Positions 2,895 to 57,545 of a stretch of DNA of 64,000 bases are shown here, piece after piece (within the stretch, counting starts at the first letter, position 1; every line of letters starts with the position of its first letter). This stretch comes from Daejeonella lutea (GTDB lineage Bacteria; Bacteroidota; Bacteroidia; Sphingobacteriales; Sphingobacteriaceae): contig NZ_FUYR01000001.1 in assembly GCF_900168015.1 (NCBI RefSeq), positions 990,943 to 1,054,942 of the forward strand, read 5' to 3'. A program made the translations under genes and the position numbers. A model generated the notes under the pieces. It was not told the origin of the DNA and did no database searches. It saw nothing but the letters and a program-made list of their open reading frames with translations.

Positions 2895-4487
2895 ATGCTC
2901 AACCCTGAAATAGAGAAACGGAAAACCTTCGCAATCATTAGTCACCCCGATGCCGGTAAAACAACCCTTACAGAGAAATTTCTCCTGTTTGGAGGTGCTA
3001 TAAATACTGCCGGAACGGTAAAACGCAATAAGGCCAACCAGAGCAGCACATCAGATTTCATGGAAATAGAAAAGCAAAGAGGAATTTCTGTTGCTACTTC
3101 CGTTATGGGATTTGAGTATAATGGTAAGCGGATCAATATTCTGGATACACCGGGCCACAAAGACTTTGCTGAAGATACCTATCGAACGCTTTCTGCGGTA
3201 GATAGTGTTATCCTTGTAGTCGATAGTGTTAAGGGGGTCGAGGAGCAAACGCAGAAGCTGATGGATGTCTGCCGGATGCGCAATACGCCCGTAATTATCT
3301 TCATCAACAAACTAGACCGTGAAGGTAAGGACACATTTGATCTGCTCGATGAACTTGAAAACAATCTGAACATTAGTGTGTGCCCCCTATCCTGGCCTAT
3401 TGGTCAGGGACATAATTTTAAAGGGGTTTATAATATTTTCGATAATTCTCTTAATCTCTTCCGTCCTGATAAATCAAAGATCGCAGAAACCCTCATCCAG
3501 GTAAAAGATCTGGATGATGCACTATTAACCGAGCATCTCCAGCCTAAAGAATTAAAGACATTAAAAGACGATCTGGAGCTGGTCGAAGGCATATACGGCA
3601 CTCTCGACAAGGATTTATACCTTGAGGGACTACTGGCTCCAGTATTCTTCGGAAGTGCAATTAATAACTTCGGTATACGGGAATTGCTTGACACCTTCGT
3701 ATCAATCGCGCCAAGCCCTAAAAGCCGGGAAGCCAATGAGCGTTTGGTTATTGCTACAGAGAAAGCCTTCACTGGGTTTGTTTTTAAGATCCACGCTAAC
3801 CTCGATCCAAATCATCGCGACAGGATTGCTTTCTTGCGAATCTGTTCGGGAAAGTTTGAACGCAATAAATTCTATTTTCATACCCGTCAAGGCAAGAAGC
3901 TTAAATTCTCGAATCCGATGGACTTTATGGCCAATGAAAAAAGTCTTGTTGAAGAGGCATGGCCGGGTGATGTGGTTGGTCTTTACGACAGTGGTAACTT
4001 CAAAATTGGCGACACTCTCACCGAAGGGGAACAGCTCCAGTTCAAAGGCATACCAAGCTTCTCCCCTGAGATCTTTAAAGAAGTTGAGAACAGGGATCCA
4101 CTAAAGTCGAAACAACTGGAGAAAGGCTTACAACAACTTACAGAAGAAGGTGTGGCTCAACTATTTGTGCAACAGCCAGGTAACCGAAAGATCATTGGAA
4201 CGGTAGGAGAATTACAGTACGAAGTAATCGCTTTCAGGTTGCAGCACGAATATGGTGCCAAGTGTGCTTTCCGGCCCCTGACGTTCCGGAAATCAAGCTG
4301 GTTAACCTCAAAGGATAAGAAGAATCTCAACGAGATCGTTCAAAGACGCCATCATCATATCGCTACTGACAAGGATGGCAATCCTGTGTTTCTGGCGGAT
4401 AACGACTGGACTCTGAATCTGGCTAAGAGAGATTTTCCTGATGTGGAGTTTCATTCTACCTCAGAGTTTAAAAGGCAACAAGGATAA
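2895..4487 (+). CDS. prfC: Peptide chain release factor 3
   Basis: RF3 is the GTPase that removes RF1/RF2 from the ribosome after peptide release. The 530-residue length is normal for the family. GTPase motifs are all visible: P-loop [13 protein letters not shown] near residue 17, switch [10 protein letters not shown] near residue 83, and NKLDREG near residue 138. The elongation-factor-like domain 2 follows, and the RF3 C-terminal domain ends in a FKRQQG tail. The gene is preceded by a good -7 box and followed by an inverted-repeat cassette that separates it from the convergent L,D-transpeptidase gene. Confidence 0.96.
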
Positions 4488-4489
4488 AG

Positions 4490-4635
4490 TAATACGTTAT
4501 ACGTTATATGTTGTAAGTTATAAGTTTCTAAACGCTGGGTTATCCGTCCAGACGTAAAACTTATAACTTACAACCTACAACTAATAGTTTCTAAACTCTG
4601 TGCAATCCGCCCAGACGTGAAACGTTAAACTTACC
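4490..4635. repeat. Iterated-word inverted repeat cassette A
   Basis: Between the convergent prfC and L,D-transpeptidase genes. The left arm at 4510-4527 (GTTGTAAGTTATAAGTTT) and right arm at 4557-4574 are perfect reverse complements over 18 bases. A 40-base segment (4523-4562) with GTTTCTAAAC and CCAGACGT is repeated imperfectly at 4588-4627. Outer words such as ACGTTATACGTT flank the arms. The same architecture recurs at five other 3' ends in the window. A bidirectional terminator role is inference. Confidence 0.85.
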
Positions 4636-6372: not shown

Positions 6373-6761
6373 AAGTGGTTAGTGACAGTTTTTAAAATTG
6401 TTTAAAACGCTAATTACCAGCATTATAGAAAACTGAGAAGTTTTACTACACATGCTCATTTGATGTATTGCAACAAATGTGCCGTTGATGTGAGGAACTA
6501 GCTTAACGCTAGAGATCCGCGTATCGGAAGATATTTGGCTGCGCATCGGAATCGACTTCGATAGATAAATCAAACGCCAGACTCTGGTTACGGTAGTTTC
6601 ATTTGCCGTTCATTTGCCGTTCATTTGCCGTTGATCTGCATGCTAAACATTCATTGAAACTGGGCTTATATAACATGCTATGTCAAGTTGGCATCGTCTG
6701 AGGTTTGGAATAGGGTTTGATATAAGCGTCCCAACTAAGACATTTAAAAAAACTCTGTACA
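6373..6761. other. Divergent intergenic region between L,D-transpeptidase gene and htpG
   Basis: These 389 bases hold the upstream regions of both divergent genes. I see no convincing gene: one 64-codon frame on the minus strand lacks any family signal. No strict TAnnTTTG box is visible on the htpG side (TAGGGTTTG at about 6711 has one base too many). The notable element is the 11-bp triplicate at 6600-6632. Confidence 0.5.
6600..6632. repeat. Three exact tandem copies of CATTTGCCGTT
   Basis: Three perfect 11-base copies in a row, about 130 bases upstream of the htpG start. A related TGTGCCGTTGATG string lies at about 6480. Possible regulator binding sites in helical phase or simple slippage; the sequence alone does not decide. 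Confidence 0.9.
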
Positions 6762-32173: not shown

Positions 32174-32424
32174 CTCGGGACTGTCCCCTACCTGCTTCGA
32201 GACTGCTTTGCCCCTGGTTCGGTTAGTCTTCGGAAAAAATAGCACCGTAGCGAAGGTTTTGCGAACAGCTAGCGAAGCGCTACCGAACACTTTCCGAACA
32301 ACTACCGAACACCTACCGAACACTTACCGAAGCGCTACCGAACACCTACCGAAGAGTTTGCGAATCTGTCCCGGCGCTGTCTCGAAGCAATCCCGAAGCA
32401 AACCCGAAGCATACCCGAACACCA
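32174..32424. repeat. 11-bp-periodic degenerate tandem array centred on CGAA
   Basis: From 32249 to 32424 there are 16 consecutive 11-base units without any slip in register, mostly of the form ACCGAACACCT or ACCGAAGCGCT; only one unit lacks the CGAA core. The same 11-base phase continues upstream to about 32174, but there the core is TCGG/TTCG, partly the reverse complement. The array lies in the nhaA to M14 carboxypeptidase interval. A 124-codon frame across it is an artefact of the repeat. It is not a CRISPR: units are too short and there are no spacers. Confidence 0.85.
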
Positions 32425-32538: not shown

Positions 32539-33771
32539 ATGGATTCCATTATCTCTCTGCTTCATTCCTATCATACATTTAATAATAACGATATCAAGGA
32601 TCGTTTCTTCAAACACAGCGACTTACTTAATGTCCTCGACAATTTAAAAACAAATCCATTGTTCGAGATCAGGGAAGTTGGAACATCTGTCGAAGGACGT
32701 TCACTGAACCTGATTAAATGCGGTGGTGGTACTGCAAAGGTTTTTTTGTGGAGCCAGATGCACGGAAATGAAGCTACAGCCACAATGGCTTTAATGGATC
32801 TCTTTAATTTCCTTGGAGATGATTGCCGGGACGATGTTAAAGACAGTATTCTGCAGAACTGTACCCTCTATTTCCTGCCGATGGTAAATCCTGACGGCGC
32901 CGAGGTTTTTAACCGACGTAATGCTCTGGAGATCGACATTAACAGGGATTTTCACAGTCAACAGTCTCCGGAGGGACGAATTTTGCGTCAGCTAAGGGAT
33001 GAGATCCAACCTCATTTTGGCTTCAATTTACATGATCAGACCACCATGTGGTCTGCCGGACAGCTCGGTAACCCTGCTACTATTTCTCTTTTGGCACCGG
33101 CCTATGATGATGCTCTGAGTATTAACACGATCAGGCAAATCGCGATGCAAGTGATCGCAGAAATGAACGATACACTTCAGAAAGTCATTCCGGGACACGT
33201 TGGACGATTTGATGACGAATACGAAATGCGGGCTTTTGGAGATAATTTCCAGGCTGCTGGAACCAGCACCATTCTCATCGAAGCTGGTGGATATGCCGAC
33301 GACCCCGAGAAACAGCATATCCGAAAACTTGTGTTTGTTGCTATGATGACCGGTCTTTTATCTATCGCTGAGCGTTCTTTTCTACGCAAAACGGTTAGCG
33401 ACTATTTCACAATTCCGGACAATAAGCTGCACCATTTCCAGATCCTGCTCAGGAATTGTAAGCTACAGACCTCTCTGCCGGCAAAGCAGATTGAAACTGC
33501 AAACCAGAACTCTGAATATACTGTAGACATCGGTTTGATCGTCAAAGAAAAGATATCCGACGACCTGAAGTCGATGACCTACACCTACCTCATTGGTGAT
33601 ATTGGCGACCTCTCTAACCGCTTCGGCTACAAAGACATTGATTGCGAGTCATTCAAACTGATTCCAACAAATAAAATCATATTCGACGAACCTGCAGATC
33701 TGGTCTTAATGGATGGCTTGGAAGTGCTGCTCGCGATTGAGAATGGAGTTATAACAAATTCCACTGTTTAG
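32539..33771 (+). CDS. M14 family zinc carboxypeptidase
   Basis: A 410-residue metallopeptidase without a signal peptide. Zinc ligands H75 and E78 lie in SQMHGNEATA; the third ligand is in FNLHDQ near residue 167, preceded by the RDFHSQQSPEG substrate loop. A glutamate in ILIEAGGYADDP near residue 247 fits the catalytic base. After the peptidase domain (to about residue 280) comes a C-terminal extension of ~130 residues seen in Bacteroidota homologues. It would remove residues from peptides in the cytosol, exact specificity unknown. Confidence 0.9.
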   Translation: MDSIISLLHSYHTFNNNDIKDRFFKHSDLLNVLDNLKTNPLFEIREVGTSVEGRSLNLIKCGGGTAKVFLWSQMHGNEATATMALMDLFNFLGDDCRDDVKDSILQNCTLYFLPMVNPDGAEVFNRRNALEIDINRDFHSQQSPEGRILRQLRDEIQPHFGFNLHDQTTMWSAGQLGNPATISLLAPAYDDALSINTIRQIAMQVIAEMNDTLQKVIPGHVGRFDDEYEMRAFGDNFQAAGTSTILIEAGGYADDPEKQHIRKLVFVAMMTGLLSIAERSFLRKTVSDYFTIPDNKLHHFQILLRNCKLQTSLPAKQIETANQNSEYTVDIGLIVKEKISDDLKSMTYTYLIGDIGDLSNRFGYKDIDCESFKLIPTNKIIFDEPADLVLMDGLEVLLAIENGVITNSTV

Positions 33772-33937
33772 TTGTAAGTATTAAGTTGTAAGTTATAAGT
33801 AAACTGACGGCGACGTAAGGGGAACTCAATAGTATACCAATAATTTACACTTAAAAACTCATAACTTAGAATATGTGCTAACTGCGACGTTTAACTTGCA
33901 ACTTAGAACCTACAACTTATAATCTATAACTTACAAC
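33771..33937. repeat. Iterated-word inverted repeat cassette B
   Basis: The left part repeats GTTGTAAGTATTAA / GTTGTAAGTTATAAGT; the right part ends TACAACTTATAATCTATAACTTACAACC, its near reverse complement. It shares its words with cassette A. It begins on the stop codon of the M14 gene and ends three bases before the ATG of the SpmA-SpmB gene, so the arm also forms the latter's leader. Confidence 0.8.
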
Positions 33938-33940
33938 CAT

Positions 33941-35185
33941 ATGGCTCTTAACTACGTCTGGATAGGATTCTTTGTCATCGCTTTCATAGTTGCTCTTATC
34001 AAGCTTGTTGTGCTTGGTGATACTGCGATTTTTAATAATGTGGTCAACGGAATGTTCGACAGCGCCAAAACAGGTGCAGAGATCTCAATTGGTCTTATCG
34101 GAATCATGACGTTTTGGTTGGGCATCATGAAGATTGGCGAACGGGCAGGAATGATTTCTCTTTTTGCGAAAGGCCTGAGTCCATTCTTTAGCCGCTTATT
34201 TCCGGATGTTCCGAAAAGTCATCCGGCAAACGGTTCGATCATCATGAACTTTTCGGCCAACGCACTAGGCCTTGATAATGCGGCTACACCGGTCGGATTA
34301 AAGGCCATGCAGGAACTGCAGGAATTAAATCCAGTCAAGGATACAGCAAGTAATGCCATGATTATGTTCCTGGTATTGAATACCGCCGGGATTACTCTAA
34401 TACCCACTTCGGTTATCGCGCTCAGGATGGCCAATGGTGCCGCAAATCCGGCAGATATCTTTATACCGTGTTTAATTGGAACATTTATTTCTTTCCTGTC
34501 GGGAATGATTGCAGTAGCCATTTATCAAAAAATAAACCTCCTGCAATTACCTATTCTGGCGTTCTTTTCATTTTTCGTCGCACTGATGCTTGGGCTGTAC
34601 TTCTGGCTTGGTGCCCTTCCTCCGGATGAGATCGCGCTATATGCCGGCCTGCTGGGTGGAATCATCATATTTTCGGTGATCACGTTATTCATTGTCCATG
34701 GAGCCTTTCAGAAGATCAATGTTTACGAAGCTTTTATTGACGGCGCGAAAGAAGGTTTCACCACTTCAGTAATGATCATCCCATTTCTAATTGCCATCCT
34801 CGTTGCAATTAGTGCCTTCCGTACCACAGGCTGTATGGATTACGTCGTTAATGCCATAGGCTCGTTTGTTGCCCTCTTCGGACTGGATACTAACTTCGTT
34901 CCCGCTCTTCCGGTGGGGCTGATGAAAACCCTCAGCGGTGGCGGAGCCCGAGGATTAATGGTCGATGTAATGAAGACCTATGGCGCAGATTCTTTCCAGG
35001 GTCGACTAGCCTGTATCATCCAGGGTTCAACCGAAACTACTTTTTACATCCTGGCAGTTTATTTTGGATCCGTTGGCATCAAAAAACCAAGGTACGCACT
35101 CGTATGCGGACTGATCGCTGATTTCGTTGGGGTGATTGCAGCGATCTTGCTGGCATACATGTTCTTCGGATCAACGATTAAGTGA
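33941..35185 (+). CDS. Fused SpmA-SpmB nucleoside-recognition (GATE) membrane protein
   Basis: A 414-residue membrane protein. Residues ~1-195 resemble SpmA (SIGLIGIMTFWLGIMKIGERAGM, FSANALGLDNAATPVGLKAMQEL) and residues ~230-414 resemble SpmB (AFIDGAKEGFTTSVMIIPFLIAILVA, GSTETTFYILAVYFGSVGI). In Bacillus these are two spore maturation proteins; the fused form in non-sporulating Bacteroidota has an unknown transport function. The ATG follows directly on repeat cassette B. Confidence 0.9.
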   Translation: MALNYVWIGFFVIAFIVALIKLVVLGDTAIFNNVVNGMFDSAKTGAEISIGLIGIMTFWLGIMKIGERAGMISLFAKGLSPFFSRLFPDVPKSHPANGSIIMNFSANALGLDNAATPVGLKAMQELQELNPVKDTASNAMIMFLVLNTAGITLIPTSVIALRMANGAANPADIFIPCLIGTFISFLSGMIAVAIYQKINLLQLPILAFFSFFVALMLGLYFWLGALPPDEIALYAGLLGGIIIFSVITLFIVHGAFQKINVYEAFIDGAKEGFTTSVMIIPFLIAILVAISAFRTTGCMDYVVNAIGSFVALFGLDTNFVPALPVGLMKTLSGGGARGLMVDVMKTYGADSFQGRLACIIQGSTETTFYILAVYFGSVGIKKPRYALVCGLIADFVGVIAAILLAYMFFGSTIK

Positions 35186-35186
35186 T

Positions 35187-35405
35187 ACGTTTTACGTTAT
35201 ACGTTGTACGTTTTCACACTTCCAATTAGCGATTTAGGCAGATTTTAGGACTCATGTGATTTTACGGGATTTGGTCAGGAAACAGTAATAAGAGGACCTT
35301 TTCTTTATTACTTCAATCCTGGGCCCATAAATCCATCGTACCCGTCAAGTAAAACCTACCATCTATCCGCCCAGAACGTATAACGTACAACGTAAAACGT
35401 ACAAC
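35187..35405. repeat. Iterated-word inverted repeat cassette C
   Basis: The left arm (35187-35214) is a run of ACGTTTTACGTTATACGTTGTACG words and the right arm (35375-35405) is their near reverse complement, AACGTATAACGTACAACGT and onward. The 160-base centre holds no gene. The right arm is preceded by ATCCGCCCAGAACGT, which nearly matches ATCCGCCCAGACGT inside cassette A. The rest of the 367-base interval up to 35552 contains only the DinB promoter. Confidence 0.85.
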
Positions 35406-44791: not shown

Positions 44792-45271
44792 ATGAACAAA
44801 CAGATCGACGTAGTAAGAAAAACCAGGAGAGCGATCCTGAACCTGATAAGCGACATGAGTACTGAAGAATTAAATCAGGTACCCGCTGGATTTAATAACA
44901 ATATCATCTGGAATATAGCTCATCTGGTTGCTGCACAGGATAATATCTTCTACGTTAAATCCGGACATCCATTAAAAAACATCAGTCAGGAGTACTTCGA
45001 TGCGTACAAACCAGGTTCAAAACCTGAGGGATCAGTTTCGTCGAATGAGATTGAGCGAATTAAGGCTTTGCTTTTCTCCAGTCTGGATCATCTCGAAAGT
45101 GATTTTGACCAGAACCTCTTCAGCAACTACCCTGCATGGACAACCCGTTACGGTGTCGATATAGAAAGCGCAAATGATGGCCTCATTCTTCTTCCCTTTC
45201 ACGAAGGTTTACATTTTGGATACATGATGGCGCAGAAGAGAGTTATCAGAGGTCAGAAGCAGGAGATCTGA
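44792..45271 (+). CDS. DinB family protein
   Basis: A 159-residue four-helix DinB-superfamily protein (IIWNIAHLVAAQDNIFYV near residue 38, with the first metal histidine; LLPFHEGLHFGYMMAQKR near residue 130 with further histidines). This places three histidines as expected for the metal site. It is distinct from the DinB gene at 35.5 kb. Its stop codon lies inside the left arm of repeat cassette D, whose sequence encodes the last few residues. Confidence 0.87.
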   Translation: MNKQIDVVRKTRRAILNLISDMSTEELNQVPAGFNNNIIWNIAHLVAAQDNIFYVKSGHPLKNISQEYFDAYKPGSKPEGSVSSNEIERIKALLFSSLDHLESDFDQNLFSNYPAWTTRYGVDIESANDGLILLPFHEGLHFGYMMAQKRVIRGQKQEI

Positions 45272-45412
45272 AGTCGGAAGTCAGAAGTCGGAGGTCTGAA
45301 GTCGGAGACTAAATGCTGAAATAGAGGTTTGCGGCGGTTGGCTTGCTTTATCTGAATGCTCGTAACTTGATAGCTCGTTTCCTCAGACCTCAGACCTTAT
45401 ACCTCAGAGATC
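45271..45412. repeat. Iterated-word inverted repeat cassette D
   Basis: The left arm is built of GAAGTCGGA/GAAGTCAGA/GAGGTCTGA words and the right arm of TCAGACCT/CAGACCTTA/CCTCAGAGATC words, largely complementary. It lies between the convergent DinB gene and the antiporter remnant. Confidence 0.8.
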
Positions 45413-48935: not shown

Positions 48936-49829
48936 ATGATAAGATCAGTAATAATCGTAAGTCTTTTGATGCTGCTTGGATTCAAAGTCCATGCACAGCA
49001 TTCAGCAAGCAGTAGTAACCTGAAGTTAAAGGCGTACCAGGATACCCTGAAAGACTTAAGTTTTAAGATGATAAACGACAGTTTGGAGCCACAACGATAT
49101 AATGCCAGCTATAAGTTCATTAGAACATTGGTAAGCGCCTTGAAAACCCCGTATTCCTTCAACTTTGCATTTGATTCCCTGAAGACAATTTCAATACAAC
49201 CCTCTTCTGATAAACGTTTCAGGATCTTCAGCTGGCACGTAATGAATGCCGACGGCAGTTACAGATATTACGGGACTGTCCAAATGAATAACCCGGATGG
49301 TAAGCTTCAAATGTTTCCGCTGGTTGATTATACTTCAGAATTTAAAAAGCCTGCCGATAGTGTCACGACTAACGATAAATGGTACGGCGCTCAGTATTAT
49401 CGCATTATATCTGTAATAAACAACGTCAAAACCCCGTACTACATCCTGCTGGGTTGGAAAGGAAACAATGTAAAATCTACAAAAAAGGTAATTGATGTGA
49501 TCCATTTCAAAGATAACAAGGCCTACTTCGGAATGCCTGTGTTTGATGGAGATAAAGACAACCCAACTCAAAAGCGTGCTATTTTTGAATATGATCGTAA
49601 GGCTTCTATGGTTTTAAACTACGACCCAAAAACTACCACCATCATATTTGATCACCTTGCCCCGCCTGATGATAAACTTAAAGGAAGGTTTGAGCTTTAC
49701 GGCCCCGACTTTTCTTATGATGGCTATCGACTTGCTAACGGCCGCTGGAAGCTGGTTGAGGATATTGAGGTAAAAAATCAACCAACGGATCAGGATGAGA
49801 ACTTTAATGATCCGAAGAAGATGAAATGA
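48936..49829 (+). CDS. Secreted hypothetical protein
   Basis: A 297-residue protein with a signal peptide cut near VHAQ (residue 21). The rest is beta-rich with a repeating aromatic pattern (FRIFSWHVMNADGSYRYYGTVQM, YYIISVINNVKTPYYILLGWKG in style). I recognise no catalytic motif. It follows the thiolase by a single base, although a secreted product is an odd partner for a cytosolic thiolase. Confidence 0.72.
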   Translation: MIRSVIIVSLLMLLGFKVHAQHSASSSNLKLKAYQDTLKDLSFKMINDSLEPQRYNASYKFIRTLVSALKTPYSFNFAFDSLKTISIQPSSDKRFRIFSWHVMNADGSYRYYGTVQMNNPDGKLQMFPLVDYTSEFKKPADSVTTNDKWYGAQYYRIISVINNVKTPYYILLGWKGNNVKSTKKVIDVIHFKDNKAYFGMPVFDGDKDNPTQKRAIFEYDRKASMVLNYDPKTTTIIFDHLAPPDDKLKGRFELYGPDFSYDGYRLANGRWKLVEDIEVKNQPTDQDENFNDPKKMK

Positions 49830-49839
49830 GTGGACGGTG

Positions 49840-50127
49840 GACCGTTGACAGTTGACAGTTGACAGTTGACAGTTGGGCATAGCGAACAAAGGCTCTAAAT
49901 TAATTCCCCGTTCGCAATACTGTGATTCATTTACAGCGTTTACATCACTTTCAAATTTCCACTCGTCCGTTGTTCGCTTACAGCGTTTGCATCACTTTCA
50001 ACTTTCAACTTTCAACTTTCAACTTTCCACTTTCATCTTTCACCTTTCAACTCACCCATTGTTCATTTACAGCGTTTCCAAAACTTTCAACCGTCAACTT
50101 TCAACTTTCAACTGTCAACTGTCAACC
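49840..50127. repeat. Iterated-heptamer inverted repeat cassette E with a 24-bp triplicate
   Basis: The left arm (49843-49875) is TTGACAG repeated four to five times. The right part (about 50000-50127) is a long run of TCAACTT and TCAACTG heptamers, complementary to the left. Between them a 24-base unit TTACAGCGTTTACATCACTT and onward occurs at 49931-49954, 49978-50001 and 50067-50090. It fills the gap between a plus-strand gene and the convergent DUF819 gene. No coding function is supported. Confidence 0.9.
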
Positions 50128-57431: not shown

Positions 57432-57545
57432 GTTGTACGTTCTACGTCATACGTTTTACGTACTTGGAAACGTACCTAACGGTTTGCAGAGTCTATATAT
57501 CGTATGCAACGTAACACGTAGAACGTATTACGTACAACGTTTTAA
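57432..57545. repeat. Iterated-word inverted repeat cassette F
   Basis: Left arm 57432-57461 (GTTGTACGTTCTACGTCATA and on) and right arm 57509-57538 are reverse complements with 25 of 30 positions matching. Words are of the TACGT type also used in cassette C. It starts directly after the queG stop codon. Confidence 0.87.

Follow-up and report, generated by a model that had tools for sequence, protein, structure and literature searches.

The window, a 64,000-nt stretch of contig C10 in a 4.03-Mb genome of the genus Daejeonella (Sphingobacteriaceae; labelled G000), contains six intergenic intervals with a common build, in which tandem words flank a centre in inverted orientation. This build had been predicted from the letters alone; we found it in all six intervals (6/6), and the loci and their shared architecture are thereby confirmed. 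No Rfam family matches the 64-kb window at gathering score, and our search of the open-licence literature found no published account of heptamer arrays in Sphingobacteriaceae. Coordinates below refer to the + strand of the window.

Locus A lies where an RF3 gene converges with an L,D-transpeptidase gene. Its left array (4487-4526) consists of the G-type words ACGTTAT and AAGTTRT and overlaps the end of the RF3 gene, whose stop codon ends at 4487. A 24-nt core, CTAAACGCTGGGTTATCCGTCCAG (4528-4551), stands between this arm and a right array of C-type AACTTAY words (4552-4581). By eye, the core (as 4591-4614) and a short version of the C-type arm recur in diverged form (together 4591-4635), with a cap at 4605; this second copy ends 7 bp before the convergent gene. 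Locus B has AGTTRTA words (33770-33800) flush with the stop codon of an M14-peptidase gene, and AACTTAC words (33893-33937) that end 3 bp before the next start codon, which belongs to a nucleoside-recognition Gate protein. At locus C, the ACGTTRT array (35179-35212) is flush with a stop codon at 35185, and the AACGTAY array (35375-35405) carries at its inner end the sequence ATCCGCCCAG (35365-35374), an instance of the element that we call cap1.

The left array of locus D, GAAGTCGGAGGTCTG (45267-45306), overlaps the stop codon of a DinB-family gene, and its right array of CCTCAGA words (45381-45404) overlaps the end of a small ORF that was called in convergent orientation. Locus E starts with GTTGACA words (49830-49875) flush with a stop codon at 49829, and has two right arrays: one of AACTTTC words (49994-50052), and one of AACTTTC and AACTGTC words (50082-50126) that ends 4 bp before a convergent DUF819 gene. 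The first of these lies within an 89-bp direct duplication (49948-50124), which has copied part of the centre and the right array together. Locus F pairs an ACGTTNT array (57432-57461), flush with the queG stop codon (57431), with an AACGTAN array (57509-57540); an ACGTACC piece in its centre (57470-57476) recurs at the same locus in three relatives (G002, G003 and G017).

We surveyed positions 1-2,000,000 of the contig and 0.4 Mb of one relative, G003, in which a home-made dicodon score called 1802 and 317 genes, respectively; some of the arrays classed as genic and some divergent intervals may reflect mis-calls by this score. Stretches of N were left out of most counts. In 1.2 Mb around the window there are 117 arrays of period 7, compared with 2 in order-2 random sequence, and each of the other periods from 4 to 15 yields 2-23 arrays except period 14, with 83; each of these counts in real sequence takes in two runs of N. 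Fourteen is a multiple of seven. In the 2.0 Mb with N left out, 258 arrays have period 7 (233 of them intergenic) versus 1-31 for other periods between 5 and 13, and in G003 the figures are 58 versus 0-7. In the whole genome, the pattern AACGTAnnACGTA has 135 matches and its backwards control 3. The words had been described as 7 to 9 bases long, a range that does not hold: the step is strictly 7. The threshold used to call arrays passes over weaker cassettes, and short arrays are visible by eye in several intervals that were counted as array-less.

The words themselves vary widely. The 133 arrays compared in 1.2 Mb fall into 21 word clusters, in agreement with the expectation that the architecture recurs while the words change, as they do among the six loci. 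Arrays at different loci share words far more often than chance, with 1080 of 8778 array pairs lying within one mismatch of each other versus 237-258 after letter shuffling. The commonest words (AATCAGT, AGAGTTG, ACAGTTG, ACGTTGT and AAGTATC among them) contain no GGG, which is found in a few rare words such as AGGGATT and AATAGGG. The G strand of the arrays has 9% C and 30% G, versus 18.5% C and 18.6% G in intergenic DNA. We looked for a strong common word grammar and rejected it; the grammar is loose, with R-G-T around one near-invariant G, and the word profile holds 3.2 bits of information versus approximately 2.0 after column permutation (303 arrays), or 3.2 versus at most 2.9 for the 92 distinct words. 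Word families do not cluster along the chromosome: neighbouring arrays share a word in 17 of 149 cases in G000 (12.75 expected) and in 2 of 34 in G003 (3.7 expected).

Arrays are preferentially located at gene 3' ends, as had been proposed. Among G000 intervals of at least 60 bp, they are present in 37/158 convergent, 91/601 tandem and 22/262 divergent intervals, so that intervals with a gene 3' end carry them more often (128/759) than divergent ones (Fisher p=0.0006). The corresponding fractions in G003 are 12/26, 20/121 and 3/46. Within the window, where it had been noted that no divergent interval has such an array, the counts are 3/7 convergent, 3/15 tandem and 0/11 divergent. That observation is correct for the window, but because divergent intervals do carry arrays genome-wide, at a lower rate, it does not generalise. 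Equal frequency between divergent genes had been named in advance as a refuting outcome, and it did not occur, since divergent intervals are poorer in arrays. We also asked how often the outermost array of an array-bearing interval lies within 15 nt of a stop or start codon. Proximity to stop codons is frequent, both in G000 (81/165 gene 3' ends; 34.3 expected) and in G003 (23/44; 9.5 expected), whereas proximity to start codons is near expectation (25/135, with 20.5 expected, and 4/26, with 5.9 expected).

Period-11 arrays are the second commonest class (31 in 2.0 Mb) and include two examples in the window (6598-6639 and 32258-32419), with words that resemble CGAACACCTAC and TTCATTTGCCG. Their preference is opposite to that of the heptamers, since 15 of the 28 intergenic period-11 arrays lie between divergent genes. 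Inverted ACGTA arrays occur within 250 bases of the starts of two contigs (G000:C1:180-246 and G000:C5:73-139), and such arrays may therefore break assemblies. Near 8.4-9.1 kb of contig C10 (L290, 904-2673), the genome also encodes an intact 589-aa reverse transcriptase whose best PADLOC match is RT_UG39 (E 1.6e-164).

The strongest rule that the arrays obey was missed by the original prediction. On its G-richer strand, an array reads away from the nearer ORF into the interval, whatever the direction of the genes. With arrays of equal G and C content left out, this polarity is followed in G000 by 47/52 arrays in convergent, 91/126 in tandem and 31/38 in divergent intervals, and in G003 by 14/16, 19/26 and 3/4. 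When polarity was tested as the nearer ORF lying on the 5' side of the G strand, the median distances in G000 were 31.5 versus 144 nt. The rule holds for 96/123 arrays in multi-array intervals of G000, for 41/48 single arrays that have a weak partner and for 32/45 unpaired single arrays (p=0.007); the equivalent numbers in G003 are 21/24, 8/13 and 7/9, of which the last two are not significant. A strict subset of divergent intervals comprises eight left arrays, all G-type, and six right arrays, all C-type, with no exceptions. Since unpaired arrays and divergent intervals obey the rule, polarity is not a product of the direction of transcription.

Polarity also distinguishes heptamer-built inverted repeats from others. 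The arms that are flush with stop codons in the first 1.2 Mb (n=40) have more G than C in the sense of transcription in 34 cases and the reverse in 2. Inverted repeats with arms of 15 nt or more number 253 in G000. The 90 with period 7 comprise 85 G-first, 3 C-first and 2 equal cases, whereas the 163 others divide into 76 G-first, 73 C-first and 14 equal. In G003 the period-7 repeats are 23:2 G-first to C-first, and the others 28:11 with 6 equal. Ordinary hairpins after stop codons have no clear polarity, either in G000 (103 with more G, 108 with more C and 56 equal) or in G003 (23, 16 and 5, respectively).

The same order dominates across the class Bacteroidia, although the class-wide evidence concerns one word pair only (AGTT/AACT): AGTTnnnAGTT...AACTnnnAACT occurs in 40 of 119 genomes with 276 matches (forward strand, overlaps counted), and the reverse order in 6 of 119 with 10 matches. 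In the backwards controls neither order prevails (83 matches in 38 genomes for TCAA..TTGA, 68 in 34 for TTGA..TCAA), and since TCAAGTA is one of the G-type words these controls are equivocal. The pattern of GTT at every seventh position is found in 125 of 149 genomes, with a backwards control that is often as high and is not neutral, as TTG occurs in common words; from this we conclude only that such arrays are widespread and patchy. An asymmetry of RNA:DNA hybrids was considered as the cause of polarity and rejected, since the difference between the G-type arm (-1.32 kcal/step) and the C-type arm (-1.23 kcal/step) is small; these values derive from a nearest-neighbour table.

The two arms of a cassette had been described as roughly complementary. 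In agreement with this, the outer two arrays of multi-array intervals have the same word beyond chance, namely in 23 of 53 intervals in G000 (5.2 expected; maximum of 10 in 300 shuffles) and in 6 of 13 in G003 (1.9 expected; maximum of 6). The correspondence is loose, however, as the remaining 30 of the 53 intervals have unlike words, most of which are still oriented by the polarity rule. A first test of complementarity gave a weak result, with the best inverted partner found in an array's own interval, as opposed to about 20 others, for 13 of 75 arrays; in the same test a partner scoring at least 12 was present for 49 of the 75, versus 21% of controls. Between arms of the same word, the order of units is not mirrored (12 of 26 pairs above the shuffled mean, p=0.53). 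Arm mismatches in 61 tandem cassettes, oriented along transcription, comprise 110 G-U and 123 A-C combinations. If an RNA stem were under selection, G-U should be in excess, and it is not; we therefore do not accept the hairpin as a selected feature. The complementarity of the arms is probably inherited rather than maintained by selection.

The inner ends of the arrays carry short conserved elements that are independent of the word. The ATCCGCCCAGA module that loci A and C had been noted to share is indeed present at both, but it belongs to this wider class of caps. Its form ATCCG[CT]CCAGA has 13 copies on either strand of the 2.0 Mb, of which 9 are within 27 nt of an array, 1 is intergenic after a short run of GTT words and 3 are in genes. 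When the first 30 nt inside an array were compared with outer flanks (262 of each), cap1 (CTGG[GA][CT]GGA) was found in 14 inner flanks, next to 10 different words, and in 1 outer flank (0.4 expected), and cap2 (CTA[AG]ACGC) in 22 inner flanks, next to 11 words, and in 7 outer flanks (0.5 expected), although several of the inner cap2 matches come from one tandem cluster (C10:617611-618003). A third cap, ACGTACC, is in 6 inner and no outer flanks. In the opposite orientation, inner flanks contain cap1 3 times, cap2 5 times and cap3 never.

A centre unique to each locus, which had been assumed, is thus not found everywhere, as caps recur at inner array ends. Any cap is present in 30 of 181 intervals. 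The core of locus A, which consists of cap2 and the reverse complement of cap1, recurs with one mismatch at C10:1270256, and similar compact centres are at 754966 and 1221155. Once the arrays are masked, one similarity network takes in 33 of the 185 array intervals, whereas no cluster in 185 control intervals exceeds 4; some links in this network run through heptamers that escaped the mask or through long, repeat-rich intervals. In the tandem cluster at C10:617611-618003, a unit of array plus cap (TTAAAAGTTGAGAGTTGAGAGTTGACAGTTACTAAACGC...) is itself tandemly repeated, and nine arrays were called. Dispersed palindromes, for example CCCGATAGCTATCGGG and CCTGCCTGCCGGCAGGCAGG, also recur in the centres of cassettes, such as locus E of G007.

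Comparison with other members of the genus, in most of which array density was judged on approximately 4-20 kb picked around the loci of the window, shows that words are replaced between species. In the interval of locus B, upstream of the Gate gene, G000 has AACTTAY words and G003 the related words AACGTAN and AACTTAT, one mismatch apart. The same interval in G007, G008, G010 and G019 has words of the RTAACTG/RTAACAG type, with arms in G008 that are below the array threshold; G009 has CTCATACTTCAGAC words, and further relatives have no array. The prediction that words would differ at one orthologous interval is borne out by this comparison of G000 and G003 with G007, G009, G010 and G019. At locus F, the word family is the same in G003 as in G000, TAACTGA-type words stand in its place in G002, and the arms in G009 belong to two families (by eye). 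At locus A, again by eye, a short heptamer hairpin is present in G019 and a plain hairpin flush with the stop codon in G007, both with the same GTTAAGCA loop. The D. oryzae locus included in the comparison (L070) has no arrays.

Among 100 intervals between orthologous gene pairs of G000 and G003, arrays are present in both species in 9, in one in 20 and in neither in 71, and some of the intervals scored as empty hold shorter, sub-threshold cassettes. The 9 shared cases exceed the 3.6 expected (Fisher p=0.0015), and in 6 of them the two species have words that differ by at most one mismatch. Of the 20 intervals with an array in one species only, 16 are shorter in the species without it (e.g., 36 versus 154 bp and 46 versus 251 bp). 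Such differences suggest that whole cassettes have been gained or lost.

The results agree best with dispersed heptanucleotide repeats that act at the level of DNA, with turnover of words and inherited similarity of arms, and we consider this explanation probable. Arrays would lengthen, shrink and reshuffle one word at a time, presumably through replication slippage, and growth in 7-nt steps is plausible. Words would mutate and then be re-amplified, so that arrays turn into mosaics of related words. Arms of the same word may descend from one word by inverted duplication or by capture of a capped core, and would afterwards scramble independently. One orientation would be kept, with the G-bearing, C-poor strand leaving the nearer ORF 5' to 3', and arrays might persist where they are tolerated, directly after stop codons and away from promoters. 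A stem in the transcript may, as a by-product, block 3' exonucleases or aid termination. Some of our data fit this explanation poorly. If arrays were merely tolerated, a polarity as strict and strong as this would not be expected, and slippage alone does not account for words shared at unlinked loci or for caps shared between words. The shorter, stop-flush hairpins of G019 and G007 at locus A also fit a functional stem.

Such a stem is central to the original prediction, according to which the cassettes are selected bidirectional terminators or 3' mRNA stabilisers whose RNA arms stay complementary while their words drift. Long stems are predicted for RNA from all six loci (-33.9 to -71.5 kcal/mol, computed without a shuffle control), and the preference for gene 3' ends, the stop-flush placement and the orthologous stop-flush stems of differing word content at locus A are all in accord with this function. 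Terminators with U-tracts (dG <= -9) are slightly rarer at convergent ends with arrays (4/38) than at those without (39/146; Fisher p=0.051), which counts against the DNA-repeat explanation; the difference is a weak hint of a terminator role, and the fractions at tandem ends are 5/44 and 44/300 (p=0.65). However, the lack of G-U excess, the unmirrored unit order, the 30 multi-array intervals whose unlike words are mostly oriented in the same way, and the polarity of unpaired arrays and of divergent intervals are not what selection on RNA predicts. Nor do period-7 stems generally combine a hairpin with a U-tract in the manner of intrinsic terminators: a T/A tract adjoins 15 of 90 in G000, versus 57 of 163 other stems, and 5 of 25 versus 12 of 45 in G003. 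Orthologous sub-threshold intervals with a gene 3' end contain an inverted repeat in 6 of 16 cases, several of them heptamer-built, which is not above the baseline of 104/250. The related proposal that other 3' ends use ordinary hairpin terminators applies to a minority of them, as the 39 of 146 array-less convergent ends indicate. We therefore regard an RNA-selected class as rather unlikely, although the distribution of predicted terminators leaves room for a minor role in termination. The interpretation originally given to these loci is, as a whole, partly supported.

Two other origins were considered. If the cassettes were a family of non-autonomous mobile elements, a short asymmetric core with variable heptamer arms would move as a unit, in accord with the network of masked centres, with caps that adjoin different words, with the ACGTACC cap in other species and with the shorter empty intervals of one-sided orthologous pairs. 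Yet caps are in a small part of the intervals, the strict compact core has only two copies, the arms of one locus can differ in word, and cap1 and cap2 are absent from the examined loci of other genus members, except for one reverse cap1 in G003; mobility of this kind is quite improbable. Alternatively, a reverse transcriptase or end-joining polymerase could extend the broken ends of an intergenic gap with G-rich repeats in the polarity of telomeres, after which the ends would be rejoined. Two ends extended in this way would be expected to leave G-strand 3' ends that face each other, bacterial reverse transcriptases that make tandem repeats are described (DRT10/UG17; PMC12632851, a preprint), and G000 encodes a UG39-type enzyme. 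Among 20 genus genomes, however, reverse transcriptases are found in 3 and Ku in 6, and arrays exist in the draft genomes of G002, G009, G010 and G019, where neither was found; we rejected both as drivers, since neither tracks the arrays. The many words in each genome would, moreover, need many templates, and end addition is very improbable.

The closest known relatives of these arrays are the GGGAATC heptamers of Xanthomonas and the GGGGA(T/C)T heptamers of Nostoc. According to PMC4692102, they are intergenic with a unit of 7, and the 5' side of their G strand faces the nearer ORF, in whichever direction that ORF is read. The same account places them near or overlapping stop codons and reports them as under-represented between divergent ORFs; in two xanthomonads, 70-75 convergent pairs form inverted repeats, and inverted pairs are few in Nostoc. 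The Daejeonella arrays agree with this description in their unit of exactly 7, intergenic location, placement rule and convergently paired sites (85:3 G-first). They differ from what is described there in having many words, the common ones without GGG, and in their caps and the replacement of words across species. That work presents one G-tract word type per genome, demonstrates quadruplexes in vitro and leaves function open, and its RNA data indicate that transcripts start or stop more often at quadruplex-forming than at control repeats (PMC4692102). Because the common words here lack G-tracts, quadruplexes cannot be the general cause of placement. Our verdict is that the Daejeonella arrays are a multi-word, non-quadruplex form of heptameric intergenic repeats, at the level of DNA. 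Heptamer arrays are also present in two Rubrivivax contigs (L088 and L089; Betaproteobacteria), the latter with the GGGAATC word known from Xanthomonas.

Other repeats have more limited resemblance. The TAACTGA repeats of marine Beggiatoaceae, cyanobacteria and five Bacteroidetes are likewise intergenic with a unit of 7, and TAACTGA is a right-arm word at locus F of G002; they differ in being mostly upstream of start codons, direct and of one word, and the main genome contains only one inverted case (PMC4679880). The P6b stem of the Nostoc tRNALeu group I intron is also built of 7-nt repeats, with a motif class that was replaced repeatedly and repeat numbers that vary on either side of the stem (PMC4476775). 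It lies within a self-splicing intron and has only two motif classes, whereas the window has no Rfam match. REP palindromes, too, are short palindromic repeats that are often downstream of genes, but their sequence is conserved and tagged by GTAG or CGTC, and the GTAG type often comes with a RAYT transposase (PMC3733652). Daejeonella words change from locus to locus, and no single conserved palindrome unites the 21 clusters.

A single word-independent machinery, operating in several phyla, might construct heptamer arrays at the edges of genes and orient them. This would entail a fixed 7-nt step, a fixed strand (the G-bearing one leaving the ORF), a free choice of word and docking sequences in the form of inner-end caps, here CTGGGCGGATA, CTAAACGCTG and GCWNACGTACC. 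We think this unlikely; if it were true, the same process would also cover the TAACTGA repeats and, in Xanthomonas and Nostoc, the quadruplex repeats, each as a special case. Fold energy alone should not make long inverted repeats at gene ends "terminators" in genomes of this kind. With hundreds of arrays and words that are replaced species by species, Daejeonella genomes permit direct tests of how 7-nt repeats originate, and they separate the rule of heptamer placement and polarity from the formation of G-quadruplexes through which it was interpreted in Xanthomonas and Nostoc.
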